The notes beneath the pieces were generated by a model. The model was not told where the DNA came from and searched no databases. It saw only the letters and a program-made list of their open reading frames with translations. Positions 8,998-49,309 of a DNA stretch of 64,000 nucleotides are shown in pieces. The stretch lies in contig NC_033638.1 in assembly GCF_001540865.1 (NCBI RefSeq), positions 1,635,215-1,699,214 of the forward strand, in the 5' to 3' direction. Position 1 is the first letter of the stretch; each line of letters starts with the position of its first letter. The DNA is from Ananas comosus (Eukaryota; Streptophyta; Magnoliopsida; Poales; Bromeliaceae). Position numbers and translations under genes: made by a program.

Positions 8998-9134
8998 ATA
9001 AAAATTTCGACGCTTTTCCGCTATCTTTTAAACTGAAAGGGACCCCGGGGCGTGACAGATTAAAGTGGTATCAGAGCCAGGTTAAGAGTTTAGCCCTATT
9101 ATATCTCATATATAGGACTATCTGGGGTCTCACA
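8998..9134 (+). repeat. Second copy of the family D tail-PBS-TRIM junction
   Basis: The last ~58 bases of the family D LTR (ending GTGACA at 9057), the 8-base spacer, the primer-binding site (9066-9078) and ~55 bases of inverted TRIM LTR repeat the arrangement at about 8548-8681 almost base for base. Confidence 0.8.
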
Positions 9135-9205: not shown

Positions 9206-10287
9206 TGTTAAGGATTTTCTAGGTTGGCGAATTTCATAAAGTCGAATGGAGTCTTGAAGAGTTAAACGTGAAGTTTTGGAAAAGAAGATTCATTTGAAGG
9301 TCAAGGATTCATTCAAAAAGCTCAGCACCTCAGGTATGAAGTATAGATCATTTGTGGTGAAGTTAACTGATCAAAATATGTTAGAAGACTTGGATTGCAT
9401 TGTTAAACTCATTCTGGACTTTTTAGTGTTCAAGGACCGGTCCCTGAGATGAGAGACCGGTCCCAGAGGGTCCTCTTTGCGTGAAATGTTGAGGCAACCG
9501 GTCCCTGGAAAGTGAGATCGGTTCCCGAACGCTTGATTTTCTGTCACACAGTGAGGGACCGGTCTCTGAAATGAGAGACCGGTTCCCGAAGCCTGTGTTT
9601 TCAGGCACGCAATCAGGCACGCAACGAGGGACCGGTCTCCCACTTGAGGGACCGGTCTCCCAAAGACCGGTCTCCTCGAGAGGACCGGTCTCTGAGGACG
9701 ACGTAAGTTTTTAAAATTGTAGTTTTGCAATCCTAGTCTACTTCTAAGTCTTCTAAATCTATAAATATGATATGAGGGTACCCATATGATGTATGCTTTA
9801 AGAGATAATGTTTTAGAAACTTAAAAACTTGATTTGGAGCTTTTGATCTATGTTTTAAATATCAAGTTCTTAGATCATCGATTTGATTCTTTGATTTCAA
9901 TTCAATAGTTCCTTGAGGATCAAATCGATGATGTTCTAAGAAGGGTTTCTCCTCATATTATACGTGCTTTTTATGTAATCAAATCACCACAAATTATCAA
10001 TTTCCTGCGAGCTTCGGAAGGAGTGTTGGGCGCGTGGATTTCGCGTGAAAGCCGTGGATTCGGTGAGCGTTTCGTTAACTCGAGACGTGTTTTGCTGTGA
10101 GGATTTGCAGCGGGATCGATTGGAGGATTCCAAGCGATCGAGGACCGGCGAAGACAATCTACAACAAGGATTCGGTAAATTGAGTCATGTATTTTCGTTA
10201 AATCACTTGTACTCAAGTTTTCTTAGTGGATTTCTTTGCGTGATCGGTCCCATGGGTTTTTCTCTCCGAATTGGAGTTTTTCACTAG
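9206..10287 (+). mobile_element. Copia-like (possibly SIRE/Maximus) LTR remnant
   Basis: It opens with TGTTAAGGATTT and ends near ccgaattggagtttttcac, the kind of terminus seen in large Copia LTRs. Length is about 1.08 kb, with no coding. No matching target duplication was found: the right side abuts a family B LTR fragment at 10288, so the 3' end is probably lost. It carries the ACCGGT array at 9436-9688. The lineage name is a guess from the end sequences. Confidence 0.45.
9436..9688. promoter_or_regulatory. ACCGGT twin-palindrome array (Copia-like LTR)
   Basis: ACCGGT (once ATCGGT) occurs at 9436/9456, 9497/9517, 9558/9578 and 9631/9651, every pair exactly 20 bp apart start to start. Further sites follow at 9666 and 9683. 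Most sit in a longer palindrome of the GGGACCGGTCCC type. The array lies about 230-480 bp from the LTR start. Confidence 0.8.
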
Positions 10288-12319
10288 GTTCAATATTACT
10301 CTTACTCAACCTATGTCCTTGACACTAGGTTCAATGCCACTCGATCTATATATATATATGTCCACATGCACATGTCATTTAACATAGTTCTATATATGTC
10401 AACTTACCCTCACTTAGCATTCTCGTCATGTCATCATTTATTTTCTTAGCATTAACCACATGCTTATCATGTATTTACTTGGCATTCTTATAACATGCAA
10501 CATGCATTCAACTAGCATTAATCAATGCATTTATTTAGGATTTCTATACCATGTCATTCATGCATTCTCTTTTGTATTTCTACTTTATGTCATTAGTATA
10601 CATTCTCTTTAGCATTTACTACATGCATCCACTTAGCATTTACATGCATCAATATAAAACCACATTACTCTTAGACATAACGGCGACCTAGTCGCTTCAG
10701 TAAACACAACCCACCTCAATTCGTACTCCGATTGCTCGTAGTCACTTGCAATCGGCCTCCCGAGGCACCCGTGATCCTGTTCGGCCCGAACTCTCGCGCG
10801 ACCACCCGGACGGCCTCCAATCCACGATCCGAAAATTAAAGGTCTACGGTTAGTTGCCACGAGCCCACGATTCCGTTTTCATGACTTTAGGACGTCGCCT
10901 CAGCCCTCCAGGCGGAAACGAAGCCGAAACGTCCGTTTTTTTAATATCTTCTCACCGGCTCGACGAATCGCCGAACTGACTTCGCCAACGTGTCGGAAAA
11001 CCTACCGATTTGGTTTCTACAAAGTCAATTTACATTCAAACCCCTCTATGACAAAAGCCCCAATTTGGAGCCCTAATAGTGCACTATAACAACATATACT
11101 CTAAACCCATTTAAATCAAGCGTTAACAAGCATGATTTCATCTAGAGATTCATCTAAAATCATTCTTAGGGCAATTAAACCGAATTCTAAGGTTCCACCA
11201 TTAAAGGGTTTGAAGCTTACCTTACTTGAGCCAATGAAGAAGAAGTAATAGCTCAACTCCAAACCATCTTCTCCATCAAGCTTCTTCTCCAATTTCCTCT
11301 CCAATTCCTCTTTGGTGGAGAGATTACAAGAGAAGGAGAGAGGGTGGTGAGCTAGAAGAAAAGAGAGAAAGAGAGAAAGACTCTCCTTTCTCTCTCTCTC
11401 GGGTTGAACCGCACAAAAGGGGGAGATGGCATTTGTTACACAAATAGCCCCCCCAACTATAGCTTATTTTCAGTTTAGCAGCTCAATTTAGCAGTTCGGA
11501 CACGTTGGAGCCCTTCTGAACGTCCGTTTGCGCTCAAATTTGACAGTCAGGCTCGGTTTTGCTTACTAAGAAAGAATATATGTTAAGTTTTTAGTTTCGA
11601 CCACGTTTGGTCACCGAAAGCTCTACCGAACTGTAATCTCTAGCAGATAGCAGTCGGATTTTATTTTCCACCTTCCGGGTGTCAGAATGGCATGAAACTT
11701 TAAATCTAGTCTCATAAAAATAATTCTGACATATTGTTCAGTTTTCATAATTTTCTGACACTGTGTATTTTCTGCTAAAATATCAGCCCCATCTCTCACA
11801 GAAAATTCTAAATCTTTTCTTTTCGTTCCGATTTCGGCACAAGTCATTTCTAACTTATATTTTACTCCACTAAATCTAATAAAAATAGTATCTCACACTA
11901 TTTTTATTTATTTTTTACTTTTATATCAAAATCTGATATGTCACAAGCCCAAAGTTTACCAGTACACTTCCTCGTGTCACCGGTAACACGACTGCGCAGA
12001 GACAAAACCCGAGAGCTGCTTCTCGGTTTCGTAGCCTTTGTACCGGTACACTTTCAATGCTGTACCGGTACACATTGCTGTACCAGTTACAACTCGATGG
12101 TTGTACCGGTACACTTTGCCGAGACTTGGTTTTTGGTTCCGTTTCGATTCTATTTCGCGCCGAACAACGCTAAAACATTTCCAACTCCTTCTAAACTCAC
12201 TTTTAACCCTTCCAACCTTGTTGGAATGTTAAATAGAACTCGTCCAACCATTTCATTCGCACGCTTTAGTCAATTTGACTAAAGTCCAATATTTTCTACC
12301 GAAGTTTCGGTATGTTACA
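10288..12319 (-). mobile_element. Family B LTR fragment (sense strand minus)
   Basis: The right end is the reverse complement of TGTAACATACCGAAAC, matching the start of the complete family B LTR at 46861. Inner blocks also match, for example the CCAATTTGGAGCCC/AATTTGG segment, the cell of sequence around the GTGTCGG motif and the CCGGTACA repeats. The distal end is missing at 10288. It abuts Gypsy-1 LTR sequence at 12320 and has displaced the outer part of that LTR. The short open frames inside are not genes. Confidence 0.65.
11958..12110. promoter_or_regulatory. ACCGGT array in family B LTR
   Basis: ACC(G/A)GT sites start at 11958, 11979, 12042, 12064, 12082 and 12105; spacing within clusters is 18-23 bp. 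Several are the palindrome TGTACCGGTACA. They lie about 210-360 bp from the LTR start when read on the minus strand. Confidence 0.75.
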
Positions 12320-12987
12320 AAGGCCTTCTCCTAGATCTCCTTCTTCTTCTCCACCTTTCTTTCCTTCTTCTTCTTCCTCTTCTTCTTCTCCTTCTACCTT
12401 GCTCAAGAGAGGGAGAGAGAGAAAGAGTTTAGTGAGAGAGAGAATGTGAGAGTGAGGGTGAGAATGAGAGAGAGGAGAAGGCTCAGCCCCTCTATACCCC
12501 TCAACTCATGGCATTTTGCATAAAAGCCCCTCCACTTTACTTCTCTCAACCTGCCTTGCCTGGGCAATTTTCGCGCAGAGGGACCGGTCCCTCAACGGGA
12601 GGACCGGTCCCCGAGAGCAATTTCCCGCAACACGCGTACGGGAACCGGTCCTTGCTCGAGAGACCGGTTGCATCGGGTGCCTGCCGCAACCCTCAGCTAC
12701 GGGAACCGATCCCTCCCACCAGGGACCGGTCCCCGAGAGCAGTTTTGCGCAGGGCTCCCCTCTGCCAGAATTCCTGCTTAAGGGAACCGGTCCCTGCCGC
12801 TAGGGACCGGTCCCCGAGAGCAGAATCTGCCAAGTGTAGATTTTACATTATTTGCTCTCGCAGACTCGACTCCAAAGCACTTTTTGTGTTTTGGACATCT
12901 TTAGCTCCTCCAAAGCCTACCCACTCGACAATTAGTCGATCCTGTACGAAGTCCAACTCTCCGATTTCGAGAATTCACTTCCTTACA
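12320..12987 (-). repeat. Gypsy-1 3' LTR, U3 part only
   Basis: Matches 23463-24131 in the same order (aaggccttctcctagatctcc, CT-rich tract, ACCGGT array, ttcgagaattca, cttcc(t)taca). It ends at CA (12987), next to the polypurine tract. The rest of the LTR is absent. Confidence 0.8.
12583..12811. promoter_or_regulatory. ACCGGT twin-palindrome array (Gypsy-1 3' LTR)
   Basis: Four pairs: 12583/12603, 12644/12663, 12705/12725 (first member ACCGAT) and 12786/12806. Start-to-start distances are 20, 19, 20 and 20 bp; pairs are about 41-61 bp apart. Flanks favour GGGACCGGTCCC. Confidence 0.85.
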
Positions 12988-19971: not shown

Positions 19972-19999
19972 ACCGGTACAGCCTGAAGGTTGTACCGGT
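19972..19999. promoter_or_regulatory. ACCGGT pair in family C LTR
   Basis: Two TGTACCGGTACA-type palindromes with cores at 19972 and 19994, 22 bp apart, about 335-360 bp from the LTR sense start. The second family C copy lacks them at the corresponding place. Confidence 0.7.
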
Positions 20000-22155: not shown

Positions 22156-23727
22156 CCAGTGGGCTCGGCCGCCGACTCCGTCGATCTCCCCACTAGGTCC
22201 AAGTGTGCAAAAGTAACAACGGAACAGATAGATATATATATCAAAGCTGTAAAGACATAATAGAAAAACTATGCTACTATACCCATAATCATGTGAAATG
22301 AATGCATGCATTATTTAGTAAAAGTTTACTATCATGCTAACAAGTTCGAGCCATATTCGATAAGCAATGTTCGATGACAATATTAACTTTTCATTTACCC
22401 AATCTGTGGCGAAACCCTTGGGTTTGCCTACGCCTCACATATCCATCCCATAGGGTAAGGAAACTCCACGTGCCCCCGAACCCGGGACTGTCTGCGGACA
22501 TCAACTCTGTCCTAATCGCCCGACACTCCGGAGTACTCGACGATAATTCCTCTCCATGTGAGGATATGGATGGCTTTACTATCCCGAATAACAGACCGTG
22601 AGCTTGATCTATCCTCTCCACGTGAGGATACCCTACGAACTAGGGCCAACATTCTCTCGGAACTCATCTATTCTGACATTCATGCATAATTACTTAGCTA
22701 TACTAAGTTCATTGGTCATAAGTCATTTACTAGGAAAACCACCTATCCCTAAGTTCATGAACCTCTAGTGTCAAGTACACTACATTAATACCACTCTCTA
22801 TGTCACTGAATAACCATCGAGTTCATCTATTTTTTTTGGCACTATAGGATCTATGTTCCGACTCAATCCTTACCTATCCATTTCACCAAGTATTCCATGC
22901 ACACTAAGTTAACATTTAGAAGCATAAGAAAAAGGTACTACAATGTAATCCTATAATGCAACATGCAATAGAAGAAAATCATGTATTTCTAAGACATAGA
23001 AAAGAGCTCGGTTGCTTCGGGATGACACCCCCACCTTTTGAGGGTACGAAGGTTCTAGAAACACTTCCCAACGAATGTTACGACGAGGTCTCGGCCTCCT
23101 TGGTCCAAAACGGTACTCAATCGGCTATATTTCGCCGATAGCTTTTCACTCGCTCGACGAATCGAAAATCCGATTTCGCCCCCGCGTTTAGACACCTATC
23201 AATTTGGTTCACAAGCTATCAAATGAGATCAATCTCATTATTTATCAAATACCCCAATTTGGAGCCCTAGGTTTGTACCAATAGCAAACCACCAATAAAT
23301 CCCTAAATTCTAGCTTAAAGCATCAACTAATCATGCTAGGGTTCCATTTGACCCATTTCTAAAGCTAGAAATCCAAAACCCTAGGTTCTACCATTGTTAG
23401 GGTTCAAGAGCTTACCTCTTAAGCTACACCAAAGAGGATAGGAGAGGGAGGTGAAGGTGTCCAAGGCCTTCTCCTAGATCTCCTTCTTCTTCTCCATTTT
23501 TCTTTCCTTCTTTTTTTTCCTCCTCTTCTTCTCCTTCTACCTTGCTCAAGAGAGGGAGAGACATAAAGAGTTTAGTGAGAGAGAGAGAATGTGAGAGTGA
23601 GGGTGAGAATGAGAAAGAGGAGAAGGCTCAGCCCCTCTATACCCCTCAACTCATGGCATTTTGCATAAAAACCCCTCTACTTTGCTTCTCTCAACCTGCC
23701 CTGCCTAGACAATTTTCGCGCAGAGGG

Positions 23728-23955
23728 ACCGGTCGATCAACGAGAGGACCTGTCCCCGAGAGCAATTCCCCGCAACACATGTACGGGAATCGGTCCTTGC
23801 TCGATAGACCGGTTGCATCGAGCGCCTGCCGCAACCCTCAGCTACGGGAACCGGTCCCTGGTGGAGGGACCGGTCCTCGAGAGCAGTTTTGCGCAGATCT
23901 CCCCTCTGCCAGAATTCATGCTTGCGGGAACTAGTCCCCGCCGCCAGGGACCAGT
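23728..23955. promoter_or_regulatory. ACCGGT twin-palindrome array (Gypsy-1 5' LTR)
   Basis: Pairs at 23728/23748, 23789/23808, 23850/23869 and 23930/23950; distances 20, 19, 19 and 20 bp. Several members carry single changes (ACCTGT, ATCGGT, ACTAGT, ACCAGT), mostly transitions at the CpG, yet spacing is kept. Confidence 0.8.
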
Positions 23956-24131
23956 CCCCGAGAGCAGAATCTGCCAAGTGCAGATTTTGCATCATTTGCT
24001 CTCGCAGACTCGACTCTAAAGCACTTTTTGTATTTTGGACATCTTTAGCTCCTCCGAAGCCTACCCACTCGACAATTAGCCGATCCTGGACGAAGTCCAA
24101 CTCTCGGATTTCGAGAATTCATTTCCTTACA

Positions 24132-24214: not shown

Positions 24215-25970
24215 TTTGGGGTCCTGCTCCTATTTCTACACGTATTGGTAATCGATACTATGTGATCTTTTGGATGACTATTCTCGTTTTACCTGAATAT
24301 ATTTCATGAACAACCGGTCTGAACTATTGCAAATATATAAAAATTTTACAGTTATGATTCAAAATCAATTTGGTACAAATATTAAAATATTTCGTTCAGA
24401 CTCTGGTGGTAAATATCTCTTCTGAATTCAGACAAATTGTTGCAAGTCAAGGCACCTTACCTCAGCTTTCTTGCCCATAGGCTCATAAGCAAAAAGGGTT
24501 GCTGAAAGAAAGCATCGTCATATCATGGACACTGCTCGGTCTCTTCTTTTTTATGGTTCTGTTCCTTCAATTTTGGACCGATGCTGTCAATACAGCTATT
24601 TACTTAATCAACATTATGCCTTCTAGTGTTGTTTCAGGTGTCTTTCCTAGTGCGTGGTTGTTTGCCAAGCCTCCTTCATATGATCACCTGCGAGTCTTCG
24701 GTTGCACTTGTCTTGTTTTGCTACCTCCTCACGAACGAAATAAATTGTCTCCTAAATCTGCTATTTGTATCTTTCTAGGGTATAGTCTTGAGCGTAAAGG
24801 GTATCACTGCTATGATCCTAACACGAGACGTCTTCGAATTTCTCGTGATGTGATTTTCTTTGAGCATCTTCTCTATTATGCCCAACCCGCACAAGCCACT
24901 GCAATTTCTCCCTCTACCCATATCGATTTTTTTCTTTTTATATAATTCTTTTCCAGTGTATTCCTCTTCCCATGAGAACTCTATCTCTCCTAATACCTCT
25001 CTTGCAGATGAAAGTGAAGTTCATGCCTCTCATGATGGTCCTTCCGTCGAAGCTCCATCCGACAAATCTCCGACATCCGTGCGTCGCTATCCCCTTTGAG
25101 AGCGCCAGCCCAAAAGGTTCTTTGGTTGTGTTACCTCACATTCTCTTTCTCTGCATTTTCATACCTTTCTTGCTAACCATCCATACTCACCCGGAACCAC
25201 GAACATACCGCCAAAGTGCGACCATTCTTGAGTGGCAAGATGCTATGTCTGAAGAACTTAAGGCTCTCAACCACACCGGTACCTGGAAGCTTGTTCCCCT
25301 TCCTCCAGGAAAGGTTTCAATCAGTTACAAATGGATCTACAAAGTTAAGACAAAGTCTGATGGTTCTATTGATCGCTCTAAGAGTCGCTTAGTTGCTCAC
25401 GGCTTTACTCAAGAGTATGGCATCGATTACGAGGGGACATTTGCTCCGGTTGCTAAAATGACATTCGTTCGCGTTCTTATCACTGTTGCTGCCTCTCGTG
25501 GTTGGCTGTTATATCAACTTGATGTTAAAACTGCTTTTTTACATGGTGATCTTCACGAAGAAGTTTACATGCAACCACCTCCTAGCCTTAATCATCCGCC
25601 TGGTCATGTCTACTTACTTCGCAAGGCGTTGTATGGTCTTAAACAAGCTCCTCGCGCTTGGTTTGAGAAGTTCTCGGCTGCCGTTATCTCTGCTGGTTTT
25701 CGTTAGAGTGAGAATGACCATGCATTTATTACTGTTTTACTTCTCTACGTTGATGATATGATTATCACTGGTGATGATCCCGATTTTATACATTTTACCA
25801 AATCTTTCTTTCAACGTCAATTTGAAATGAAGGATCTCGGGCTCCGCCATTATTTTCTAGGTATTGAAGTAGCCTACGATTCTAAAGGCTATCTACTATC
25901 TCAACGGAAGTACACAGTGTATCTCATCTCTTGTGCTGGTCTTACTGACAATAACACAGTAAATACTCCA
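24215..25970 (+). pseudogene. Copia pol, integrase to reverse transcriptase, broken
   Basis: Begins inside the integrase core (GNRYYVIF and, out of frame, the DDYSR-like region), continues with the integrase end (DAVNTAIYLINIMPSS; HLRVFGC; FLGYS; DVIFFEH) and a damaged linker. The RT follows at about 25200-25970 (ATILEWQDAM, YKWIYKVK, LVAHGFTQEYGIDY, QLDVKTAFLHGDL, LRKALYGLKQAPRAWF, then YVDDMIITGDD). Frameshifts break the integrase part; TAG at 25704-25706 interrupts RT where Gln is usual (CAG to TAG). The frame runs up to the ATGCA duplication at 25971 and continues at 35805. gag and the 5' LTR are not in the window. Confidence 0.85.
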
Positions 25971-25975
25971 ATGCA
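25971..25975. other. Target-site duplication ATGCA (left)
   Basis: ATGCA precedes the Gypsy-2 LTR start TGTCACG and is repeated at 35800-35804 after its end CTCACA. Both copies lie in the Copia RT reading frame, so the insertion point is exact. Confidence 0.95.
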
Positions 25976-26467
25976 TGTCACGCCCCGCCCCGAATCCACT
26001 ACCAATTTGGCACGGTTCGGGCACGCCGGACGGACCGCCGAACGGACAGCACCTCTCCTGTCCGCCCAAGGCCAAGCAACCAGATCACGTACAAGAATTT
26101 GCCCAGGAGAATAAATTCAATATATACATGATCGACTAAGGCACACAAGTGCCAAGTAACTAAGAGCAAGAACCACAAGTGGATGTACAAGTGTATAAAG
26201 AGAGACAGTCTAACTATTACAACCATTCAACATTTACATCATTGAATATATTACATTTCCACCTTCCAAAATCTAAATACATGTTTTCCTCAAAATATAT
26301 AGGTAGCTCTCCAATATCTATCCAAAATATCATCTAGTACACGAGGGTACTCTAATAAATAAAAGGAAAAGCTACTAACTAAGCTCACTTAGGGTGCTAA
26401 GCCCTTGCCGCGGTCCCCGCTCGACTCGCCTCTGTGTGTACCTGTACCCCAAAACCACACGGGGTGA

Positions 26468-26487
26468 GAACTATATAAATATAGTTC
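26468..26487 (-). promoter_or_regulatory. LTR stem-loop, Gypsy-2 form (3' LTR)
   Basis: GAACTATATAAATATAGTTC: 8-bp stem with loop TAAA, between ACGGGGTGA and CCAGTGGG. On the sense strand it follows CCCACTGG and precedes TCACCCC, then a T/G-rich stretch ending in ACAG. Confidence 0.65.
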
Positions 26488-28071
26488 CCAGTGGGTTCGG
26501 CCGCCAACGCTGCTGGTTTTCCCACTAGGTCTAAGCTGGCACAGATAGAGAGATAGATAGATATACGTAGAAAATGAACTGCAACTACTCTATCATGCCA
26601 TCAATGATAATAATGGATGCAACAACTACTATCATGCTAGTATCATGTCATGAGTATATAAAGGTGCATAGTAATGTAAACTACAACATACACTATGTCT
26701 ACTCAAGGCAATAATGCAAGTCTACTATACATTTCATGTTTATTACCCAATTTACTTGGTTAACCCGTAGGTTAAACCCTCGACTCACTCTCAATCTCAT
26801 AGGTGAGGAGAAACTGCACTCGCACACCGAGACCGTCTGCGGGACAACTACGTCTGCCCCTAGTGAAGTACTCCGGAGACTCGTGCCTCGGTGGAGCGAC
26901 CACCGACAAGCAAAAACAGACTAGTTAGTATGATCCAATCCTCACAAAAGGATACCCTGTCTACTAGGGTCAATGTGCCTCTGCTGCACAATCATGATAT
27001 ATAATCCATGTCGGGACTTCTACTATCCCTAAGTTCATGTCAAGTTTACTACACTAGACTCGATGCCACTCATTCGATCATTGTAGTAAGTTTTCTACTA
27101 GTTGACATGCCACTCGTTCAAATTTAGTGTTTCTACTACACTAGTTCAATGCCACTCTACTAGACTATGTCCAAGTTCGGCTCTCTATGCCGCTATAGGA
27201 TTCTATGTCACAAGACCCAATCCTCATGCTATCCTAGTCCACGTATCAAGCTCACCCCGCTACACTACTAAGTAAGCATGCAAGGAAATGGAAATGTACA
27301 ATTACTATATCCTATAGCACAATATGATCAATATAAATACTTAGACATAAAAAGAAACCCGGATGTTTCGAGACGACACCCTCCACCTCTTGGTGATGTC
27401 TTGAAGCTACGATTCCGTTTCCAAGATTTTTGGAAGCTTTCGCCGCGTGCTGTGGCAATCTGTACCCTAGCGGCTTAGATCTTCGATATCTCCGCGTACA
27501 CTCGTCGGATTGCCGAACCGAGCGCACCGTTGTGTCGAAATACCTACCAATTAGGTTAGATGATGGTCAAATGAGATCAATCCTTTACTTTTCCAAAAAC
27601 CCTCTTTTGGTGCCCTAGGGTTAGCATCAAGCTAAACCCATCTCAAAACCCTAGATTCTAGCTCCAATCCTACCATTCATTGTGCTAGGAATCCATTTGA
27701 TCCCATCCAAAGAGCTAAAACCCAAAAACCCTAAATTCATAAGCTAGGGTTGGAAGCTTACATCTAGGTTAGCTTAAAAGAGAGAGAAGAGGATGAGGGC
27801 GAAGTCCAAAAGCTTGCTTTTGTTGGTCTCCTTCTTCTTCTCCTTCCCTTTCTTCCTTCTTTTCCTTCTCTTTTCCTTTTCTTCTTCTTCTTCTTCTTTC
27901 CCTTCTATAGAGAGAGAGAGAGCAAGAGAGTGTGAGGGGGAGAGAGAGTAGAATGAGAGAGTGAGAGGGAGAGAGGGGCTAATAAGCCCTCTAATGTAAC
28001 AATATCCCAGCAGCCCCCTCCACTTTTCATCCTATGCACTGCCCCTCACTGGGCATTCTGCGCCCAGAGGG

Positions 28072-28345
28072 ACCGGTCTCCCCGACTTGGGACCGGTCCC
28101 CGAGAGCTTCAGCTCGGGTCACGCGTTCGGGTACCGGTCTCTCCCAGAGAGACCGATCCTCGGGAGACCGGTTCCTTCCTGAGAGACCGGTTCCCGAGAA
28201 CTGGGATTTCAGGACTTAGCCATATTTTGGCTTTTCTCGCTGGTCTCGCGTTCGGGGACCGGTCCCTCACTGCCAGGGACCGGTTGCCTCAAGCAACCCC
28301 GCAACTCCCACTGATGGGACCGGTCCCTCCCTGCCAAGGACCGGT
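28072..28345. promoter_or_regulatory. ACCGGT twin-palindrome array (Gypsy-2 3' LTR)
   Basis: Sites start at 28072/28092, 28133/28152 (ACCGAT), 28167/28186, 28258/28279 and 28319/28340. Distances within pairs are 20, 19, 19, 21 and 21 bp. The array lies 176-450 bp from the sense start of the LTR, in U3. The 5' LTR repeats the array at about 35350-35623. Confidence 0.85.
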
Positions 28346-28521
28346 CCCCGAGAGCAGTTTTGCTCTAGTGCAGGTTTTGCACTATTTGCTCTCGTGGACT
28401 CGTTTCCAATGCACTTTTGGTGATTATGATATCTTTGGCTTTTCCAAAGCTCACCAATACGACCCTTGGTCGATTCTGGATGAAGTCTAATCCTCGTATT
28501 TCGAGAATTCACTTCCTCACA

Positions 28522-28533
28522 TCCTCCCCTCCT
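28522..28533 (-). other. Polypurine tract of Gypsy-2
   Basis: The minus strand reads AGGAGGGGAGGA immediately before the LTR start TGTGAGG, which is the exact position required for plus-strand priming. Confidence 0.9.
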
Positions 28534-28585
28534 AAAAAGGAGTTTCGTCCTCGAAACGAATTTACTATTTTAATCAACTCCTACC

Positions 28586-30088
28586 TCATTGCATTTCTGT
28601 AAAGAGATGAGGATAGTGCGCTTTCATCGTTTCCTCGAGTTCCCACGTGGCCTCACGATCGTCGTGACCGGTCCAACGAATCTTCACATAGGAAATTTCA
28701 TGATTTCTCAATTTCCGCACTTCTCGAGCAATGATCATCGCCGGGAACTCTTCATAGCTTAAATCCTCTTGTAGATCCGGCGGTTCATAGTACATCACGT
28801 GCTCGGGATCGTGGATATACTTGCGAAGGTTAGAAACGTTGAATACATCATGCACACCCGCGAGCTTCGGCGGTAATGCAAGTCGGTATGCTACCGCTCC
28901 AACACGTTCCAACGCCTCGAAAGGTCCGATATATCGGGGACTTAGCTTTCCCCGCACTCCGAAGCGCTTCACACCTCTCATAGGTGAAACCTTCAAGAAA
29001 ACGCGGTCACCCACCGCGAATTCCAAATCTCTACGGCGTTTGTCAGAATAGCTCTTTTGCCTCGACTGTGCCGTAAGTAGTCTCTCGCGAGCGAGATAGA
29101 CCTTCTCTTCTGCCTCCCGCAATACGTCTGGGCCCAATGCCGCATGCTCACCCACATCGCTCCAACATATAGGAGATCCGCACTTCCGTCCATATAGGAC
29201 CTCGAACGGTGCCATCCCAATGCTAGCTTGATAACTGTTATTGTAGGCGAACTTGGCAATCCTCAAATGGTTTGCCCAACTACTCTTGTAGTCAATGACA
29301 CACGCCCGCAACATATCCTCCAGAATCTGTATAGTCCTTTCTGACTGTCCGTCTGTCTGAGGATGAAACGCGGTGCTGAAATCGAGCCGTGTGCCAAGTG
29401 CTTCCTGCAGGCTTTTCCAAAAGTGCGAAGTAAAACGGGGGTCTCGATCTGACACGATCGACTTCGGAATCCCGTGCAACCTCACAACTTCATCCAAGTA
29501 TACCTGCGCCAACTTGTCGCCCGACCAGGTGGTGTGAATCGGTAGAAAGTGTGCCGACTTGGTCATACGATCCACAATCACCCAGATCGCGTCGTGGCCA
29601 CCCGTCAAACGGGGCAATCCGACCACGAAGTCCATCGCTATATTCTCCCATTTCCAAACGGGAATAGGTAAACTTTGGAGCTTTCCCGCTGAAAATCGGC
29701 GCTCAGCCTTCACTTGCTGGCATATTAAACATTGCGCTACATAGCGCCCAATATCCGCTTTCATGCCCGGCCACCAGTACTGCATCTTCAGATCACGGTA
29801 CATCTTGGTGCCGCCCGGGTGAATGCTATAAGGAGTCCGATGTGCTTCTTGTAAGATCAACTTCCGGGCCTCCTCGTTTTTCGGTACGCACCATCGGTTC
29901 CGAAATCGAAGCGCACCCTCGGCGTCTATATTGAAATCACCGCCGTGTCCACTTTCGATGTCTCGCCGCACTTTTTGGAGGTTAGGGTCTGCAGGTTGCA
30001 AACTCTTGATCTGCTCCAACAAGGTCGGTTGGACAACGAGAGCCGTAAGCATAGACGGAATTTCCGGAGCTACCACCTCTAGATCCAA
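28586..30088 (-). pseudogene. Gypsy-2 pol: integrase with chromodomain-like tail
   Basis: 500 codons in the same frame as the upstream parts, cut off from them by a TGA at 30089-30091. The order is: integrase zinc region with His83, His90, Cys120, Cys123; catalytic core with Asp153, Asp214 (SDRDPRF) and Glu250 (DGQSER), giving the standard D,D(35)E spacing; then the GDRVFLKVSPMRG region, and a C-terminal IRWTG...EATWELE segment like a chromodomain, which in chromoviruses steers insertion into heterochromatin. All catalytic residues I can identify are present. Translation from the element's own start would not reach it unless the stops are read through. Confidence 0.88.
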
Positions 30089-30742
30089 TCATTCCATCTC
30101 TCTCCATAGTGGTTCTTGACGTGTGACTAACATAGCAAGATTCTCCACTGACTTCCTGCTAAGCGCTTCGGCCACCACGTTTGCTTTTCCGGGGTGGTAT
30201 AGGATTGTAACATCGAAATCCTTTAGCAACTCAAACCACCGCCGCTGCCGCATATTAAGCTCTTTCTGTGTGAAAAGGTACTTCAGACTTTTGTGGTCCG
30301 TGTATATCTCGCAACGCGCGCCATACAGGTAGTGCCTCCATAGCTTGAGGGCAAACACTACGGCGGCCAACTCTAAGTCATGGACAGGGTAGTTCTTCTC
30401 ATAGCTTTTCAATTGACGGGACGCATAAGCGATCACCTTCCCGCCTTGCATCAGAACACACCCTAAGCCCGATTGTGACGCGTTGCTATACACCACAAAG
30501 TCTTCATCTTGCACCGGTAAGGCGAGCACCGGAGTCGAAGTTAATCTATCCTTCAACTCTTGAAAACTCCGGTTGCACTCGTCATTCCAAATGAACTTGG
30601 TGCCTTTTCGAGTCAGATGGGTAAGTGGACCCACGATCTTCGAGAATCCCTCCACGAACCGTCTATAATAACCCGCTAAACCTACAAAGCTTCGAACTTC
30701 CGTGACGTTAGTCGGGCGAGGCCAATCCTTGATCGCCTCCAC
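30089..30742 (-). pseudogene. Gypsy-2 pol: RT connection and RNase H
   Basis: 217 codons between the two nonsense codons (true upstream limit at the TAA, 30857-30859). It begins with the RT thumb/connection ([14 protein letters not shown] upstream; [17 protein letters not shown]) and carries RNase H. Of the expected acidic residues, the first is Asn87 (YSNAS, usually D) and the last is Glu192 (AEALSR, usually ADALSR); Glu124 and Asp149 are kept. Gypsy-1 keeps D at both positions. RNase H removes the RNA template during reverse transcription, so this domain is probably inactive or weak. It ends at TGA where Gypsy-1 has Arg (CGA to TGA possible). Confidence 0.88.
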
Positions 30743-30859
30743 TTTCCTCGGGTCAACAGATACTCCTCCCTCGGAAATGACATGCCCAAGAAATGCAACC
30801 TCTCGGAGCCAAAAGTTGCATTTCTTAAACTTAGCATATAGCTTCTCCTCCCGGAGGAC

Positions 30860-33316
30860 TTAAAGCACTATTCTCAAATGCTCGGCATGTTCCTCGTCGC
30901 TACGCGAGTAGACTAAGATGTCGTCTATGAAGACCACGACAAATCGGTCCAAGTACTCCTTGAAGACACGGTTCATTAGATCCATGAACGCTGCCGGGAC
31001 GTTAGTGAGCCCAAACGGCATGACCGTGAATTCATAGTGTCCGTACCGCGTGCGAAATGCGGTCTTTTGCACATCTTCCGGTTTGATCTTAAGTTGGTGA
31101 TAACCGGACTGCAGATCGATCTTTGAATAAACCCGAGACCCTTGCAACTGATCAAACAGATCGTCAATTCTCGGCAACGGGTACTTATTCTTGATCGTGA
31201 CCTTTTTCAACTCGCGATAGTCGACGTAGAGTTGAAACGATCCATCCTTCTTTCGCACAAATAGAACCGGGGCTCCCCACGGCGATACACTTGGCCGTAT
31301 AAATCCTTTATCAAGGAGATCCAATAATTGAGCCCGCAATTCCTTCAATTCCGCCGGCGCCATCCGATACGGAGCCTTCGACACAGGCGCGGTTCCTGGA
31401 ACCAAGTCTATCACGAACTCGATCTTCCGGTCTGGCGGCATTCCCGGCAACTCCGCGGAAAATACATCAGAAAATTCCTGAACCACGGATAGTTCCTCAA
31501 GTGCCGCAGTCGCCCTCTCGACTTCCACAACAGTCGCCAAGTAGGCCGTACAACCGCCGTTAATCAACTTCCTCGCCCTCGTCGCCGATACCATAGCGGC
31601 GAAGTGCGAGCTTCTATAGGCCCGGTAGACAAATTCCTCTTGTCCCGGTTCACGAAACGTAATCACTTTACTTCTACAGTGAATAGTTGCATAGTACTTC
31701 GAAAGCCAATCCATTCCTAGAATGACGTCGAAGTCTTTCAACTTCTTGAATACCAACATACGGATGGGCATTATCCAATCGCCCAACCGCACGGGACAAG
31801 ACGAACACTCCATACGTACTAGAAAATCACGTCCGGGGCCCGATACTCTCCAAGTGCTTTTACTCTCTTGTAGTTCTATGTCATGCATGCGTGCAAATGA
31901 CCTACTGATGAATGAATGCATAGCACCTGTATCAAACATAGCCCTAGAGCGAACTCCGTTAATTAAAACCATACCTGCGAGTACATGGCGATCCTCCGCC
32001 TCAGCAGGTTCCTCGGCTTGAGTTTGAGCGGCAAACACCCGCCCACTCAGAGCCGATCTCGTCGCCTCAGGTTGGCGTGGCACCATCGCACGTCCGGCCG
32101 ATGACGCAGCAGGTGGGACTCCTCCATAATGCGCTGGGGTCGCCGGAGCCGACGCGACCAAAGGGGCAGGCGAAGCCCTCATTCGACAGTGGCGGCTGAT
32201 ATGGCCCGCCTGTCCACACGTGAAGCACTTTCCCTCCCGTTGATCACACATCCTCGGCTCGTGGTTCCCACCGCAGATTATGCACCGCTGCGGTCCGCGG
32301 CCCTTGGATTGCGTTCGCGGGTACTTCGGGGGCTTCCTTGGCCTCGATTGAGCTCCCGAGCTACTCTGAGCCCGCTTCTTGCCACCGTCCTTCTCGGACG
32401 CTTCTCGCTCCTCCCGGATGTGAGCGTTTCCTTGCTCCGACCACAACGCTCGATCGAGCACCTCCGCGAAGGTAGTGAGCTTCAGAATGTGCAACGCCCG
32501 GTAGATATCGGCCCGGAGCCCTCGCTCGAACCAATCGGCTCGATCCCTGTCATCCCGCACTACGTCGGGGACGCAGTCAATGATGTGAGAGAACTCCTGC
32601 TCATATTCCGCCACCGTGCGGCCACCTTGCTTCAACTTTCGAAATTGCTCTTGCTTCTTCTTCTCGCTATCGGGGAAGTAGTTGACATAGAACAATCCCC
32701 GAAATTCCTCCCACGTCATCGGCGGAAGGTCGGAAGCCCGGTTCCTCTTGATTCGCTTCCACCAAACCTTCGCCGTTTGCTCCAAACAATGAGTGGCGAG
32801 GTAGACCTTGTCCCTCTCTGAGGTGTAGAGGTCCTCGAACAAGGTCTCCGTCGAGTCCACCCATGACTCGACCATCCATGGCTCGACCTTCTCTCCCTCG
32901 AAGGTCGGTGGATTAAACCTTCGAAACTTCTCGAGAGCCGCAAGTGCGCGGTCCCTCTCCGCCTCCAATGCCGTCGTATCGGGTGCCGTAGAACCCGACG
33001 CCGCCAGAGGAACGCTCGCCGGCGGGGGACGTGCCGCCACCGGAACTGCCGCAATGCCCTCGCCCTCAGCCGCCGTAGGCGCACGAGCTGGAGGCGGGGG
33101 CGGATCACGGCCCTCAGTCGCAGCTGCAGTTGCCGCTGCAAAATGCCGCTCCATAAGCCCTTGGAGCTGCTCAAACCGACTCTCCTGGCGCTGTACAATG
33201 CCTGTTAATGCCGACACTTGCGCCCGTAACTCCCTCACTTCACTAGATCCGGCTTCCTCGGGCACCTCAGGAGATGGTGCCGGAACGGACCTACGCACGT
33301 AGCGTCTTGGGGACAT
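30860..33316 (-). pseudogene. Gypsy-2 gag, protease and reverse transcriptase
   Basis: 818 codons from ATG ([10 protein letters not shown]) to a TAA. Domains: coiled-coil-like segment about 25-60; Ala/Pro-rich linker 65-110; gag core about 130-290 ([47 protein letters not shown]); two zinc knuckles, [13 protein letters not shown] (345-357) and [14 protein letters not shown] (364-377); aspartic protease with DTGA (462-465); RT from about 620 with [18 protein letters not shown] and the active-site FIDD (796-799). The start is supported by the matching Gypsy-1 start and by lying 345 bases inside the primer site. The TAA replaces a Gln codon seen in Gypsy-1 (CAA to TAA). Confidence 0.9.
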
Positions 33317-33660
33317 TGTTCCTGCAACGCAACAACCGGGTTAGTCATCTAACCCACTTATCTCCGTCGCATACACTATATTACGCGACACAACTCCGCC
33401 ATAAGCGGACGTACACATGTATTAGTCCTAACTCTTAGCGTCGTGTTGTCGGCCGCCAACACAACTCCGCGACCTTGGAACTAACACCGCTCGGATCCAT
33501 CTCTAGCCACACTAGAGGTCTACACTCGATCCGACCTAATCGGATTCTTCCTCAACCGATATAGGTTTACGTTCCTCTCACGTACCTATACAACCCTAGG
33601 GTTCACCGTCCTAAGGTCTCTTAGGTCCATCCTAGACCCTCTCTTTACTTGCTCTTAATT
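33317..33660 (-). other. Gypsy-2 untranslated leader
   Basis: About 345 bases between primer site and gag start. Alignable with the Gypsy-1 leader (CTCTAG..ATCC, GTACGTGA, cctagggt blocks). No open frame of note. Packaging signals would be expected here, but I cannot define one. Confidence 0.7.
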
Positions 33661-33672
33661 GCTCTGATACCA
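33661..33672 (-). other. Primer-binding site (tRNA-iMet) of Gypsy-2
   Basis: The minus strand reads TGGTATCAGAGC, nine bases after the LTR end CATGACA. It is complementary to the 3' end of plant initiator tRNA-Met. Confidence 0.93.
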
Positions 33673-33681
33673 ACTTTCTTT

Positions 33682-35799
33682 TGTCATGCCCCGCCCCGAA
33701 TCCACTACCAATTTGGCACGGTTCGGGCGCGCCGGACGGACCGCCGAACGGACAGCACCTCTCCTGTCCGCCCAAGGCCAAGCAACCAGATGATGTACAA
33801 GAATTTGCCCAGGAGAATAAATTCAATACATACATGATCGACTAAGGCACACAAGTACAAAGTAACTAAGAGCAAGAACCACAAGTGAATGTATAAGTGT
33901 ATAAAGAGAGATAGTCTAACTATTACAACCATTCAATATTTACATCATTGAATATATTACATTTCCACCTTCCAAAATGTAAATATATGTTTTCCTCAAA
34001 ATATATAGGTAGCTCTCCAATATCTATCCAAAACATCATCTAGTACACGAGGGTACTCTAATGCATAAAAGGAAAAGCTACTAACTAAGCTCACTTAAGG
34101 CGCTAAGCCCTTGCCGCGATCCTCGCTCGACTCACCTCTGTGTGTACCTGTACCCCAAAACCACACGGGGTGAGAACTATATAAATATAGTTCCCAGTGG
34201 GTTCGGCCGCCGACGCCGCCGGTTCTCCCACTAGGTCTAAGCTGGCACAGATAGAGAGATAGATAGATATACGTAGAAAATAAACTGCAACTACTCTATC
34301 ATGCCATCAATGATAATAATGCATGCAACAACTACTATCATGCTAGTATCATGTCATGAGTATATAAAGGTGCATAGTAATGTAAACTACAACATACACT
34401 ATGTCTACTCAAGGTAACTAGTTCAATGCCACTCTACTAGACTATGTCCAAGTTCGGCTCTCTATGCCGCTATAGGATTCTATGTCACAAGACCCAATCC
34501 TCATGCTATCCTAGTCCACGTGTCAAGCTCACCCCGCTACACTACTAAGTAAGCATGCAAGGAAATGGAAATGTACAATTACTATATCCTATAGCACAAT
34601 ATGATCAATATAAATACTTAGACATAAAAAGAAACCCGGATGTTTCGAGACGACACCCTCCACCTCTTAGTGATGTCTTGAAGCTACGATTCCGTTTCCA
34701 AGATTTTTGGAAGCTTTCGCCGCGTGCTGTGGCAATCTGTACCCTAGCGGCTTAGATCTTCGATATCTCCGCGTACACTCGTCGGATTGCCGAACCGAGC
34801 GCACCGTTGTGTCGAAATACCTACCAATTAGGTTAGAGGAGGGTCAAATGAGATCAATCCTTTACTTTTCCAAAAACCCTCTTTTGGTGCCCTAGGGTTA
34901 GCATCAAGCTAAACCCATCTCAAAACCCTAAATTCTTGCTCCAATCCTACTATTCATGGTGCTAGGGATCCATTTGATCCCATCCAAAGAGCTAAAACCC
35001 AAAAACCCTAAATTTCATAAGCTAGGGTTGGAAGCTTACCTCTAGGTTAGCTTAAAAGAGAGAGAAGAGGATGAGGGAGAAGTCCAAAAGCTTGCTTTTG
35101 TTGGTCTCCTTCTTCTTCTCCTTCCCTTTCTTCCTTCTTTTCCCTCTCTTTTCCTTTTCTTCTTCTTCTTCTTCTTTCCCTTCTAGAGAGAGAGAGAGCA
35201 AGAGAGTGTGAGGGAGAGAGAGAGAGTAGAATGAGAGAGTGAGAGGGAGAGAGGGGCTAATAAGCCCTCTAATGTAACAATATCCCAGCAGCCCCCTCCA
35301 CTTTTCATCCTATGCACTGCCCCTCACTGGGCATTCTGCGCCCAGAGGGACCGGTCTCCCCGACTTGGGACCGGTCCCCGAGAGCTTCAGCTCGGGTCAT
35401 GCGTTCGGGTACCGGTCTCTCCCAGAGAGACCGGTCCTCGGGACACCGGTTCCTTCCTGAGAGACCGGTTCCCGAGAACTGGGATTTCAGGACTTAGCCA
35501 TTTTTTGGCTTTTCTCGCTGGGCTCGCGTTCGGGGACCGGTCCCTCACTGCCAGGGACCGGTTGCCTCAAGCAACCCCGCAACTCCCACTGATGGGACCG
35601 GTCCCTCCCTGCCAAGGACCGGTCCCCGAGAGCAGTTTTGCTCTAGTGCAGGTTTTGCACTATTTGCTCTCGTGGACTCGTTTCCAATGCACTTTTGGTG
35701 ATTATGATATCTTTGGCTTTTCCAAAGCTCACCAACACGACCCTTGGTCGATTCTGGATGAAGTCTAATCCTCGTATTTCGAGAATTCACTTCCTCACA
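33682..35799 (-). repeat. Gypsy-2 5' LTR with ~430-bp deletion
   Basis: 2118 bp, TGTCATGCCCC to CTTCCTCACA. It matches the 3' LTR closely but joins ...tctactcaagg directly to ...ctagttcaatgcc at about 34415, so 3'-LTR bases of about 26710-27140 have no counterpart. Stem-loop at 34174-34193, ACCGGT array at about 35350-35623. Confidence 0.9.
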
Positions 35800-35804
35800 A
35801 TGCA

Positions 35805-36483
35805 ACTTCATCAAAAACTAACTCCTACCATGGGTGAGCCACTTTCAAATCCTACACGCTATTGGGAGTTAGTTGGAGCTCTTGTTTATCTCACCATCTC
35901 TCGTCCAGATATTGCTTATGCTGCCCACATAGTAAGCCAGTTTGTGCAGGAACCAACTTTTGTTCACTATGCTGCTGTTTTTCGCATTTTCCGCTATCTT
36001 CACGGCACTATTAACCAGAGTCTTTTCTTTTCTTCTACCTCGGAACTTGCACTCCGAGCTTATTCTGACGCTGATTGGGCTGGGGACCATACTGATCGTC
36101 GATCTACCACGAGTTATTGCATTTTTCTTGGTGACTAGCTTATTTCATGGCGAGCTAAGGAGCAGAATATTGTCTCCAAATCTAGTGTCGAAGCTGAGTA
36201 TCGTACTATGTCTACTACAGCTTCTGAGATTGTTTGGCTTCGTCGTCTTCTTGGTGATATTGGCATTACTTGCTCTACTCTGACATCTCTGTATTGTGAC
36301 AATCAAAGTGCAATCAAGATTGATAATAATCCGGTATTTCATGAATGCACTAAAAATATTGAAATTGATTGTCACTTCGTTCGACATCATTTTTTTAATG
36401 GCACACTTGCCTTACCTTTTATATCTTCTTATCTCCAGCTTGCCGACTTCTTCACAAAGTCTCATACCATACAACGACATTAA
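35805..36483 (+). pseudogene. Copia pol, end of RT and RNase H
   Basis: The Copia frame resumes directly after the ATGCA duplication: GEPLSNPTRYWELVGALVYL, ISRPDIAYAAHIVSQFV, YLHGT, then RNase H with YSDADWAGDHTDRRSTTSYC, a TAG at 36136-36138 in the GDxLISW motif, VEAEYRTMSTTASEIVWLRRLL, LYCDNQSAIKI, HFVRHHF and LADFFTKS, stopping at TAA (36481-36483). Apart from the TAG the frame is open. This is the C-terminal part of the polyprotein begun at 24215; the 9.8-kb Gypsy-2 insertion separates them. Confidence 0.87.
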
Positions 36484-46860: not shown

Positions 46861-49309
46861 TGTAACGTATCGAAACCCGGAAGAAATTGTCGAACTTTAG
46901 CCAAATTGGTTAAAGTTGTCAAAAGAAAAGTTGGACAAGTTCCAATTGGCATTCCAACAATGTTGGTAGGGCTAAAAATAGGTTTAAGAGGTGTTAGAAA
47001 GGTTTTAGCATCGAACGGCGCAAAACTGCATTCTGGAGCAAAGTGTACCAGTACAACCAGCGAGTTGTCACCGGTACAGCCCAGCAGCCGAGCCGAGTGA
47101 GCTCTACAGCCCAGCAGCCGAGCCGAGTTTCCTCTCGGGTTGCTCTCTGCGTAATCGTGTAACCGGTGACAGAACAAAGTGTACCGGTACACTTTGGGTC
47201 TGACAGCAAAAATGAAAACTGCTGCAAATACAAGTGTTTGGAGGGTTTTGTTGTAATTGTTACAACATGTTAATCCCCAACCCTACTTTTCTCTCTCTCC
47301 CGTAGCCATTTCTTCTCCTCCTCTTATTTTCCTCTTTCTCTCTCTAGAAACCTCTTGAAAGAGCAAGGAGAAGATAGATTAGAAGGCTTGGGAGGTGATT
47401 TTGGGAAGATTGAAGGCTTGGACTCTCTCCTCCAAGGTGGACATTGTAGAGCTTTGGGCCAAGGTGAGGTGTTTTTGTAAGATTAGGGTTAGGGCTTGGG
47501 AGTTATGCCCTAAAGCTTTGGGTTTTGACCTTTTAGCTAGAATAGAAGCCTCTAATGGCCTTAGAACACATGGAAACAAGGTTTACCATGTGCTCTCATC
47601 GTAGAAACCCTAGGGTTGAGTTTTATGTCCTAGGAATGGTTCAAAAGGTTTGGAAATGGTATTAGAGAGCTTCTTAGGTGGTTCTAAGCTTAGTTTTGCT
47701 TAGCTGCAAGATCAATCCCAAGAAATTTGATAAGTGGCATTATTAGGGCACCCAATTTGGGGCTTTTGCCTCCGAATGTTTCTAAAGCAAACTGACCTTG
47801 TAGAAACCTAATTAGGAGTATTCCCGACGCGTGGGACAACTTCGTTTGACATTATGAAAAGATTTAAATGAAGTTATTGAGAAAAGCCTAATTTGGCTTC
47901 GTTTTGCCGCAGGCGAAAAAGTAGGGCTTTAAAAATCCCAAGAAATTCATCGTAGCATCCCTACAACCGTCTAAGGTGGGTGGTGCAATCCGAGGATCTC
48001 GGAATTTCTTTTATGTCTAAAGTGTCATATTTGAGCATATGTGTATTGAGCATGAAATTGCATAGTAGGGTTATATGTGAGCATTTCATTGCATGTTGTG
48101 AGTACAAATGCATGTGGACTACTAGCAAGATTGTGAGAATTTATAAACCCTATTCATCCATGATAAGTGACAAGAACTTAGTGGGCCTAGTAAACAAATG
48201 TGACATCTTGACATAGAAATAGAAAGCGACAATAATGAGTCGAGAATGTGAGAGTTGGAACACTTAGAAAATAAGTGTGGCATGTGTACAAGAACATAGC
48301 AGTGTATATGACACTAGTGAACGTAAAGAATGCAAGTAAAAGTGTGATAGCGACATTATAACATAACAACCTTAGAATTAAGGGTCATATGTGCATTGTT
48401 TCCTTATAGTTAAGGAATGGATTGAACTTGATATCCCTACAGTTAAGAATTGGATCATACTCGCCTGTAAGTCCTTACTCGAGGGTGGTAGCTCCCCCTC
48501 GGGCGATGTTCTCCGGAGTTATCATCACTGGGTGTAGTAGCCTCCCCAGAGGACGGTCCCGTCGGGCGTAGTAGTCTCCCCGATACTGGAATTTGAGTTG
48601 GTGAGTTGTTGAGGCCGAAACCTATGGGTTAGCCAAGAGATTGAGCAACGAGATTGTGACCATGCATTCATCATGAGTATATTATTGAGCATTGCATTAA
48701 TTACTGTTCAGCCATATTAGCTGCATTTGTATAGTTCGGTTACTATCTATATCTCTTTTCTTCTATTATGCCTGATTTAGACCTAGTGGGAAGATCGGCG
48801 TGGTCGATTGCCGAACCCACTGGAAACTTTATTGTAATTCTCACCCCACTATTTCCACAGAGCCGGGACCGAGCGAGCCGGCGGACGATCGCGGTAAGGG
48901 CATCGTGCCCTAGTTAGAGACCACCCGAGTTGGTTTCACCTTTTGGTTTAGTTGCATACTCTTTAGATATCATCTTTTGTATTCCGATGATTTTAGTATT
49001 ATGAACATGTTAAATAAATGAGGTAAAAAGGATTATGTTTCAATGCAAAGTTTATATTTTGAGATCATGTGATGTAAAGAGAAGAAATGATGCAAAAATG
49101 TAAATGATTTTCCTAAGTGTAGTTTATCACTTTCACTATTGGCTATTGCTTGCCCTCGTGCAAGCCATTGTGTATGCTTCCGCTTATGCAATTTTTATAC
49201 TCTATCTGTACCTGTTGTTGAGCCTTGGGCGGACGGGGGAGGCTCTGTCCGTTCGGCGTCTGTTCGACGCGCTCGAACCGGCCAAAAGGATCGGCCTCGG
49301 GGCGTGACA
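46861..49309 (+). mobile_element. Family B solo LTR
   Basis: 2449 bp from TGTAACGTATCGAAACCC to GGGGCGTGACA, with ATATA before (46856-46860) and after (49310-49314). No internal region remains. Inner landmarks: ACCGGT sites 47047-47188, CT-rich tract about 47289-47347, CCCACTGG...TCTCACCCCAC at about 48817-48849, and TCTGTCCGTTCGGCGTCTGT near the end. Partial copies lie at 10288-12319 and 56565-56735. The open frames within it are not genes. Confidence 0.88.
47047..47188. promoter_or_regulatory. ACCGGT array in family B solo LTR
   Basis: ACC(A/G)GT at 47047 and 47070 (23 bp apart) and at 47162 and 47183 (21 bp apart), 186-328 bp from the LTR start. Some are in the palindrome TGTACCGGTACA. 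Confidence 0.7.

Follow-up and report, generated by a model that had tools for sequence, protein, structure and literature searches.

The retrotransposon LTRs of the 64-kb stretch analysed here (hereafter, the window) harbour real and ordered arrays of the palindrome ACCGGT, in which the sites stand in pairs about two helical turns apart. We read these arrays, with a probability of roughly 0.6, as cis-regulatory U3 enhancer modules composed of phased dyad sites for a putative host homodimer. This reading builds on the observed excess of sites, their pairing, the joint phase of five arrays, the symmetric flank counts, the place in U3 in Gypsy-1, Gypsy-2 and family B, and the retention of sites in two pairs aligned between Gypsy-1 and Gypsy-2. 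The arrays are the following:

9436 to 9689, plus strand: array of five pairs in what the initial annotation called a Copia-like LTR, nine exact sites and one ATCGGT (the 9436 array).
11958 to 12110, minus strand: array of family B copy 1 (B1), three pairs with flanks TGT-ACCGGT-ACA, four exact sites.
12583 to 12811, minus strand: array of the Gypsy-1 3' LTR, four pairs, seven exact sites and one ACCGAT.
19972 to 19999, no strand assigned: family C pair, 22 bp apart.
23728 to 23955, minus strand: decayed array of the Gypsy-1 5' LTR, four exact sites.
28072 to 28345, minus strand: array under study, five pairs in the U3 of the Gypsy-2 3' LTR, 176-449 bp from the LTR start.
35350 to 35623, minus strand: counterpart array of the Gypsy-2 5' LTR, five pairs, ten sites, all exact.
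47047 to 47188, plus strand: array of family B copy 2 (B2), two pairs, three exact sites, 186-327 bp from TGTAACG at 46861.

In total, the window contains 55 copies of ACCGGT, where 9.0 ± 3.0 are expected; none of 100 shuffles reached this number (shuffle maximum 18), and 48 of the 55 copies lie in the eight array regions. Among the palindromic hexamers of the window ACCGGT ranks fifth, after four AT-only words. For the gaps, each family copy was represented by a single array (9436, B1, Gypsy-1 3' LTR, C, Gypsy-2 5' LTR and B2), and 15 out of the 29 gaps between exact neighbours measured 18-23 bp. The five arrays with at least three sites contain 14 such gaps, against 3.4 ± 1.7 expected for exact sites, and 20000 random placements gave at most 12. 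When one mismatch was allowed, 21 out of 34 gaps were of 18-23 bp, and the corresponding comparison was 20 against 4.4 ± 1.9 (random maximum 13). The six tested arrays are not six independent samples, since Gypsy-1 is a homologue of Gypsy-2 and family B contributes both B1 and B2, and the ACCGGT counts and gap statistics apply to the 64-kb window. The pairing near two helical turns proposed in the initial annotation is thus confirmed.

The element that contains the array under study, Gypsy-2, is a minus-strand Ty3/gypsy chromovirus with the following parts:

25976 to 28521, minus strand: 3' LTR, starting with TGTGAGG at 28521 and ending with TGACA at 25976, with a TGCAT target-site copy at 25971-25975.
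28586 to 33340, minus strand: coding frames, three open frames searched separately, with Pfam matches to gag, protease, RT, RNase H, integrase and a marginal chromodomain.
33682 to 35799, minus strand: 5' LTR, with ends as in the 3' LTR and a TGCAT target-site copy at 35800-35804.

The Pfam domain order of Gypsy-2, gag-protease-RT-RNase H-integrase-C-terminal chromodomain, is that of Ty3/gypsy chromoviruses, with the chromodomain (E 2.7e-5, 24.5 bits) slightly below the cut-off of 25.1. We take TGGTATCAGAGC, past the end of the 5' LTR, to be PBS-like, and AGGAGGGGAGGA, ahead of the 3' LTR, to be the purine tract. Protein relatives share 42-75% identity and the named ones are from plants (among the best 120 of 7976), which, together with the kinds of element present, suggests a plant as the source of the DNA. 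The RNase H frame at 30089-30859 has no relatives in viral contigs, and a pattern search of the viral contigs gave one match, L001.

The pairs of the Gypsy-2 3' LTR are located at 28072/28092, 28133/28152, 28167/28186, 28258/28279 and 28319/28340. Their spacings are 20, 19, 19, 21 and 21 bp, as previously annotated; nine sites are exact and 28152 reads ACCGAT. At 176-449 of 2118 bp (the length of the 5' LTR), the array occupies the upper half of the LTR and is followed downstream by a CT-rich leader; inspection by eye found no clear TATA box after it. A single large indel separates the two LTRs: ~409 bp at 26731-27139 are present in the 3' LTR and absent from the 5' LTR, with an overlap of ~21 bp at the break. 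The whole element (25971-35804) is inserted in a Copia element, directly after the Copia RT match. This host has RVT_2 matches in the frames 24864-25703 and 25707-26111, and the frame 36139-36480, without Pfam match, contains what we take to be RNase H-like words.

Gypsy-1 has the same order as Gypsy-2, and its array lies 176-404 bp from the LTR start. Two LTR parts were delimited:

12320 to 12987, minus strand: part of the Gypsy-1 3' LTR, 92% identical to 23463-24131.
23463 to 24131, minus strand: part of the Gypsy-1 5' LTR, from the LTR alignment.

The annotated spacings of the 3' LTR (20, 19, 20, 20) hold, with one degenerate site at 12705. For the 5' LTR, annotated as 20, 19, 19, 20, one exact pair was found (23850/23869), but the other three are degenerate: two contain one one-mismatch site each, and in the fourth the site at 23950 has one mismatch and its partner two (by eye).

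The 9436 array has the annotated spacings of 20, 20, 20 and 20 bp, with one degenerate site (9517), and a further fifth pair with a gap of 18 bp. The frames beside this array gave no Pfam match, which leaves the label Copia-like without coding evidence for or against it, and a target-site search for its LTR ends gave eight candidates, none of them singled out. A possible promoter element follows the array:

9759 to 9769, plus strand: TATA-box-like CTATAAATATG, ~70 bp past the 9436 array, found by eye.

Upstream of the array, at 9047-9078, an LTR-end-like GGGGCGTGACA followed by TGGTATCAGAGCC was seen by eye and is perhaps the border of another gypsy-type element. Elsewhere in the window, the region 60635-63187 matches Transpos_assoc, Transposase_21 and DUF4218 in Pfam and encodes a CACTA-type transposase, and 4464-4920 is a tandem duplication of a 229-bp AT-rich unit with 97% identity.

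Both family B copies start with TGTAAC, at 12319 on the minus strand and at 46861 on the plus strand. The spacings annotated for family B (21, 22 and 23, 21) and for family C (22 bp) were found again, and B1 has a further pair with a gap of 23 bp; the one-mismatch site ACCAGT is present in three out of the five family B pairs. In the linker of B2 (47070-47162), a ~23-bp stretch is present twice, 30 bp apart, and a third family B LTR start, without ACCGGT, lies at 56565-56736. The target-site search found no LTR ends for B1 or B2. For family C it gave an LTR candidate 70 bp long, which is not credible, and the frames beside this pair have no Pfam match. The initial annotation placed the arrays about 180-480 bp from the LTR start in each case. 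The measured positions, for four of the six arrays, are 176-449 bp (Gypsy-2), 176-404 bp (Gypsy-1), 186-327 bp (B2) and 209-361 bp (B1).

Helical phase was analysed jointly in five arrays (9436, Gypsy-1 3' LTR, Gypsy-2 5' LTR, B1 and B2), with sites of up to one mismatch and our own pairing; family C, the Gypsy-1 5' LTR and the Gypsy-2 3' LTR were left out, and the arrays included are few and partly homologous. A scan of periods from 9.5 to 25 bp gave 10.3 bp as the best common period, with R 0.77. Random placement gave R 0.42 ± 0.06 in the band 10-11, and none of 2000 placements reached 0.77; with exact sites only, R was 0.80 against 0.47 (0/2000). When the pairs were kept and only the linkers were redrawn, in two ways, the observed phase was reached in none of 3000 trials in each, and jittering only the pair gaps also gave 0/3000. 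The linkers-only P was 0.004 for Gypsy-2, 9436 and B1 together, 0.03 for Gypsy-2 and B1, and 0.09 for Gypsy-1 and B2. Taken alone, single arrays give weak support for the phase (Gypsy-1 0.02, Gypsy-2 0.12, 9436 0.22, B1 0.25, B2 0.81). Three of the 14 linkers break the phase, with 15 bp in Gypsy-2, 15 bp in 9436 and 18 bp in B1. The linkers of 53, 61, 63, 72 and 92 bp deviate by at most ~1.5 bp from whole turns and are not copies of the 41-bp linker; those of 63 bp (B1) and 92 bp (B2) are one linker in two family B copies, each near whole helical turns. Most sites are therefore located on one face of the helix, as the initial annotation had suggested, with a common period of 10.3 bp over the five arrays.

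The same annotation considered the families unrelated, which is too strong, as homology between Gypsy-1 and Gypsy-2 extends over both the LTR and the coding region (76.8% identity over 4044 columns; LTR starts z 47.6). Its statement that the sequence between pair members varies is true, but the spacers exceed the likeness of shuffles inside Gypsy-2 (z 4.9) and between Gypsy-1 and Gypsy-2 (z 5.2), so old tandem duplication contributed. This raises a rival explanation, a decayed minisatellite, in which ancient tandem duplications of 20- or 61-bp units would alone have left the regular spacing behind, without any selection for distance. Compatible with it, the linkers of Gypsy-1 and Gypsy-2 are alike beyond shuffles (z 6.9), the 9436 linkers resemble those of Gypsy-1 (z 4.8 on the same strand, 3.2 on the opposite strand), and 11 out of 14 units chosen from Gypsy-1, Gypsy-2 and 9436 align to one consensus. 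The 9436 spacers also resemble those of Gypsy-1 and Gypsy-2, with z 3.7 to 6.3 whichever strand is compared; such a likeness on both strands would in part reflect symmetric composition, and a common origin is possible.

The spacers of B and C show no likeness to those of Gypsy-1 or Gypsy-2 (z from -2.5 to 1.3 in six comparisons that covered either strand), yet their gaps measure 21-23 bp, and the LTR start of B has no likeness to that of Gypsy-1 or Gypsy-2 (z at most 1.7). Weak likeness was found between the spacers of B1 and 9436 (z 2.3 and 2.7) and between the linkers of Gypsy-2 and B1 on the opposite strand (z 2.8), and B1 resembles the sequence that precedes C (z 3.9, 0/300 shuffles). The post-array stretch of B2 aligns to Gypsy-2 (z 10.7) and Gypsy-1 (z 7.1), partly through CT-richness; this likeness of the leader is confined to B2, because the stretch taken for the post-array part of B1 aligns to none of Gypsy-1, Gypsy-2 and B2 (z at most 0.0). 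There are thus two sequence groups with about equal pair spacing, Gypsy-1, Gypsy-2 and 9436 with 18-21 bp, and B and C with 21-23 bp.

The decay of sites bears on the minisatellite in both directions. Between the two Gypsy-1 LTRs, differences affect 12 of 73 CG, 13 of 71 CHG and 27 of 523 other positions; CG and CHG positions together differ three times more often than the others, which is the pattern expected for methylated DNA. The hexamers and the remaining array positions differ alike (6/48 and 22/180), so this copy gives no sign of constraint after insertion, as a minisatellite would have it. Between families, however, two end pairs that align between Gypsy-1 and Gypsy-2 (two of the four Gypsy-1 pairs) keep four out of four hexamers and the block GGACCGGTCCCCGAGAGC while their spacers differ. 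Without selection between insertions the hexamers should go first, because they hold the fast-differing CG and CHG positions, and they were kept nonetheless. Together with the linkers near whole turns that do not derive from the 41-bp linker, this makes the minisatellite alone an unlikely explanation.

The flanks of the sites read GRG-ACCGGT-CYC in Gypsy-1, Gypsy-2 and the 9436 array, and TGT-ACCGGT-ACA in B and C. Among 28 sites of the first group, G is found in 23 at -3 and C in 26 at +3; position -2 has G in 19 and A in 8, mirrored by C in 19 and T in 7 at +2; position -1 has G in 22 and A in 4, mirrored by C in 22 and T in 6 at +1. The 12 sites of B and C have a different flank that is likewise palindromic. 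These mirror-symmetric counts would suit the dimeric factor proposed earlier. Covariation of flanks within sites was not found (complementarity 78/120, against 78.2 with the right flanks shuffled inside the family). Pair partners, compared within families over three bases each, matched in 33 of 57 inner positions against 39.0 when shuffled, and in 39 of 57 outer positions against 35.7 (P 0.13). Half-sites that vary independently inside a family suggest a protein dimer and not base-paired arms, and the symmetric flanks without such covariation therefore favour a DNA-bound homodimer over RNA hairpins.

Another explanation would be hairpins in the 3' LTR transcript, from which small RNAs would be made and silencing would follow, an idea put forward for maize Sireviruses. 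The three arrays folded are far more stable than shuffles (Gypsy-2 5' LTR z -6.1, 9436 z -7.8, B2 z -4.0), but good folding is expected of any repeated palindrome and whole helical turns are not needed by a hairpin. When families are pooled, the outer flanks of pair partners match in 42 of 60 positions against 28.8 shuffled (P 0.0004) and the inner flanks in 36 of 60 against 30.2 (P 0.08); this match arises because the families differ in their palindromic flank. Rfam gave no match at the gathering score. According to the available excerpts of PMC10760457 and PMC5311732, which cite Bousios 2016, the Sirevirus palindrome regions have an excess of small RNAs, and the maize hotspot likewise consists of clustered palindromes, capable of forming hairpins, within the regulatory LTR portion. 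We consider hairpins quite improbable as the main role of the arrays, since covariation was not found inside families despite the stable folds of three arrays; they are possible as a side effect of an enhancer. Rotational positioning, by which CCGG steps at 10.3 bp would fix a nucleosome upstream of the promoter, is very unlikely: nucleosomal DNA has a period of ~10.3 bp, which fits the five arrays (these span 142-274 bp), but such positioning would require neither an exact hexamer nor a symmetric or family-specific flank, and the sites occupy every second turn at most.

A second motif accompanies the sites:

28098 to 28107, minus strand: co-motif CCCCGAGAGC, adjoining the second member of pair 1 in the Gypsy-2 3' LTR array.

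Further copies of CCCCGAGAGC are located at 28346, 35376, 35624, 12609, 12731, 12812, 23754 and 23956. Counted on either strand, CTCTCGG has 11 of its 19 window copies inside the arrays, whereas shuffled arrays would contain 0.6; each of these 11 reads CTCTCGGG in the sense direction of its element (Gypsy-1, Gypsy-2, B1 and B2), and six of them are LTR duplicates of one another. Oriented CTCTCGGG near ACCGGT was seen at 12009, 12611, 12733, 12814, 23756, 23958, 28100, 28348, 35378, 35626 and 47132.

The nearest precedent among the matches listed is the Sirevirus line. The available part of Bousios 2010 (PMC2829016) describes a palindromic motif repeated in Sirevirus LTRs, with at least eight copies per element, an element-specific sequence around a CGG-CCG core (one of 13 elements lacks the core) and no common binding factor. 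Arrays of these motifs begin 200-400 bp into the LTR, within its upper half and ahead of the TATA box, and are absent from the other Ty1/copia elements of that study. Our arrays are similar in having many copies of a short, dyad-symmetric, CG-rich motif, and probably also in their place upstream of the promoter, in the upper LTR half (seen for Gypsy-2), and in a motif that differs between elements around a comparable core (PMC2829016, available part). Arrays of palindromes at about this LTR position have hence been described since 2010, and the term undescribed in the initial annotation is too strong (PMC2829016, same part).

The differences are also clear. Sireviruses are Ty1/copia elements, whereas Gypsy-2 is a Ty3/gypsy chromovirus with Ty3-type gag and pol, and Gypsy-1 is its homologue. 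In place of CGG-CCG, the core here is ACCGGT, in which CCG and CGG overlap (PMC2829016, available part); CGGTC...GACCG occurs in our arrays only across a pair. The maize Sirevirus motif, CACCGGACNNNGTCCGGTG in the text available, differs from ACCGGT too. Compared with the Sirevirus start of 200-400 bp (PMC2829016, available part), Gypsy-1 and Gypsy-2 start at 176 and B2 at 186, and only B1, at 209, falls within. A TATA-like box, which follows the Sirevirus motifs (PMC2829016, available part), was seen here only for the 9436 array. Eight or more exact sites are found in the Gypsy-2 5' LTR (ten), the Gypsy-2 3' LTR (nine) and the 9436 array (nine), and the Gypsy-1 3' LTR reaches eight with seven exact and one degenerate, all copies counted; B has four and three exact sites and C two, in elements that are not delimited. 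The Gypsy-2, Gypsy-1 and 9436 arrays have a GC content of 0.58-0.66 and a CpG observed/expected ratio of 0.76-0.81, and are not outstanding by this ratio since that of the window is 0.90. Pairing at ~20 bp and helical phase are absent from the available part of the Sirevirus account (PMC2829016).

The literature search, with most subscription papers outside its scope, found no chromovirus ACCGGT arrays among the matches listed, and nothing usable on candidate factor families, including LOB domain, among the matches listed. The U3 of Tnt1 possesses repeated activator boxes and ONSEN a heat-shock element; similar to these, our arrays may be LTR sites for a putative host factor that drives transcription, with different sequences and factors. 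ONSEN is named in the excerpt available of PMC11656987. In the available text of PMC11049143 and PMC1940011, ACCGGT belongs to a primer and a motif list, and PMC6911290, in its available part, deals with palindromes at insertion sites; these have no bearing on the arrays.

The enhancer reading adds to these results a bound protein, its activating role, array growth through duplication and selection for phase, all of which we infer. In this reading, every ACCGGT and the bases beside it would form a dyad recognised by a host DNA-binding protein that works as a homodimer. A distance of about two helical turns between the dyads of a pair, and mostly further whole turns from pair to pair, would place the dimers on one DNA face, where mutual contact or a common co-activator is possible, and the bound dimers would drive transcription from the promoter downstream. 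The arrays may have grown by old duplications of a ~61-bp unit (pair ~20 and linker ~41), with selection during the life of the element keeping sites and phase while the remainder drifted. By analogy, they can be read as the Ty3/gypsy chromovirus counterpart of the Sirevirus palindromic motifs, with helical phasing added. It is conceivable, though we lean against it, that a single host homodimer serves several LTR families of one plant genome, perhaps from two superfamilies, by reading ACCGGT dyads at whole turns of 10.3 bp, plus the oriented CTCTCGGG beside them in Gypsy-1, Gypsy-2 and B, as a geometry-dependent enhancer code kept in phase by selection against fast CG/CHG decay.

To our knowledge, little is known about what activates plant chromoviruses, whose families are large and mostly silent. 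A phased array offers a concrete handle on them, with one hexamer, one spacing rule and one symmetric candidate factor, possibly common to several families. If the enhancer reading is true, it would carry the Sirevirus-type motif over to Ty3/gypsy elements and supply a geometric rule applicable across sequenced plant genomes.
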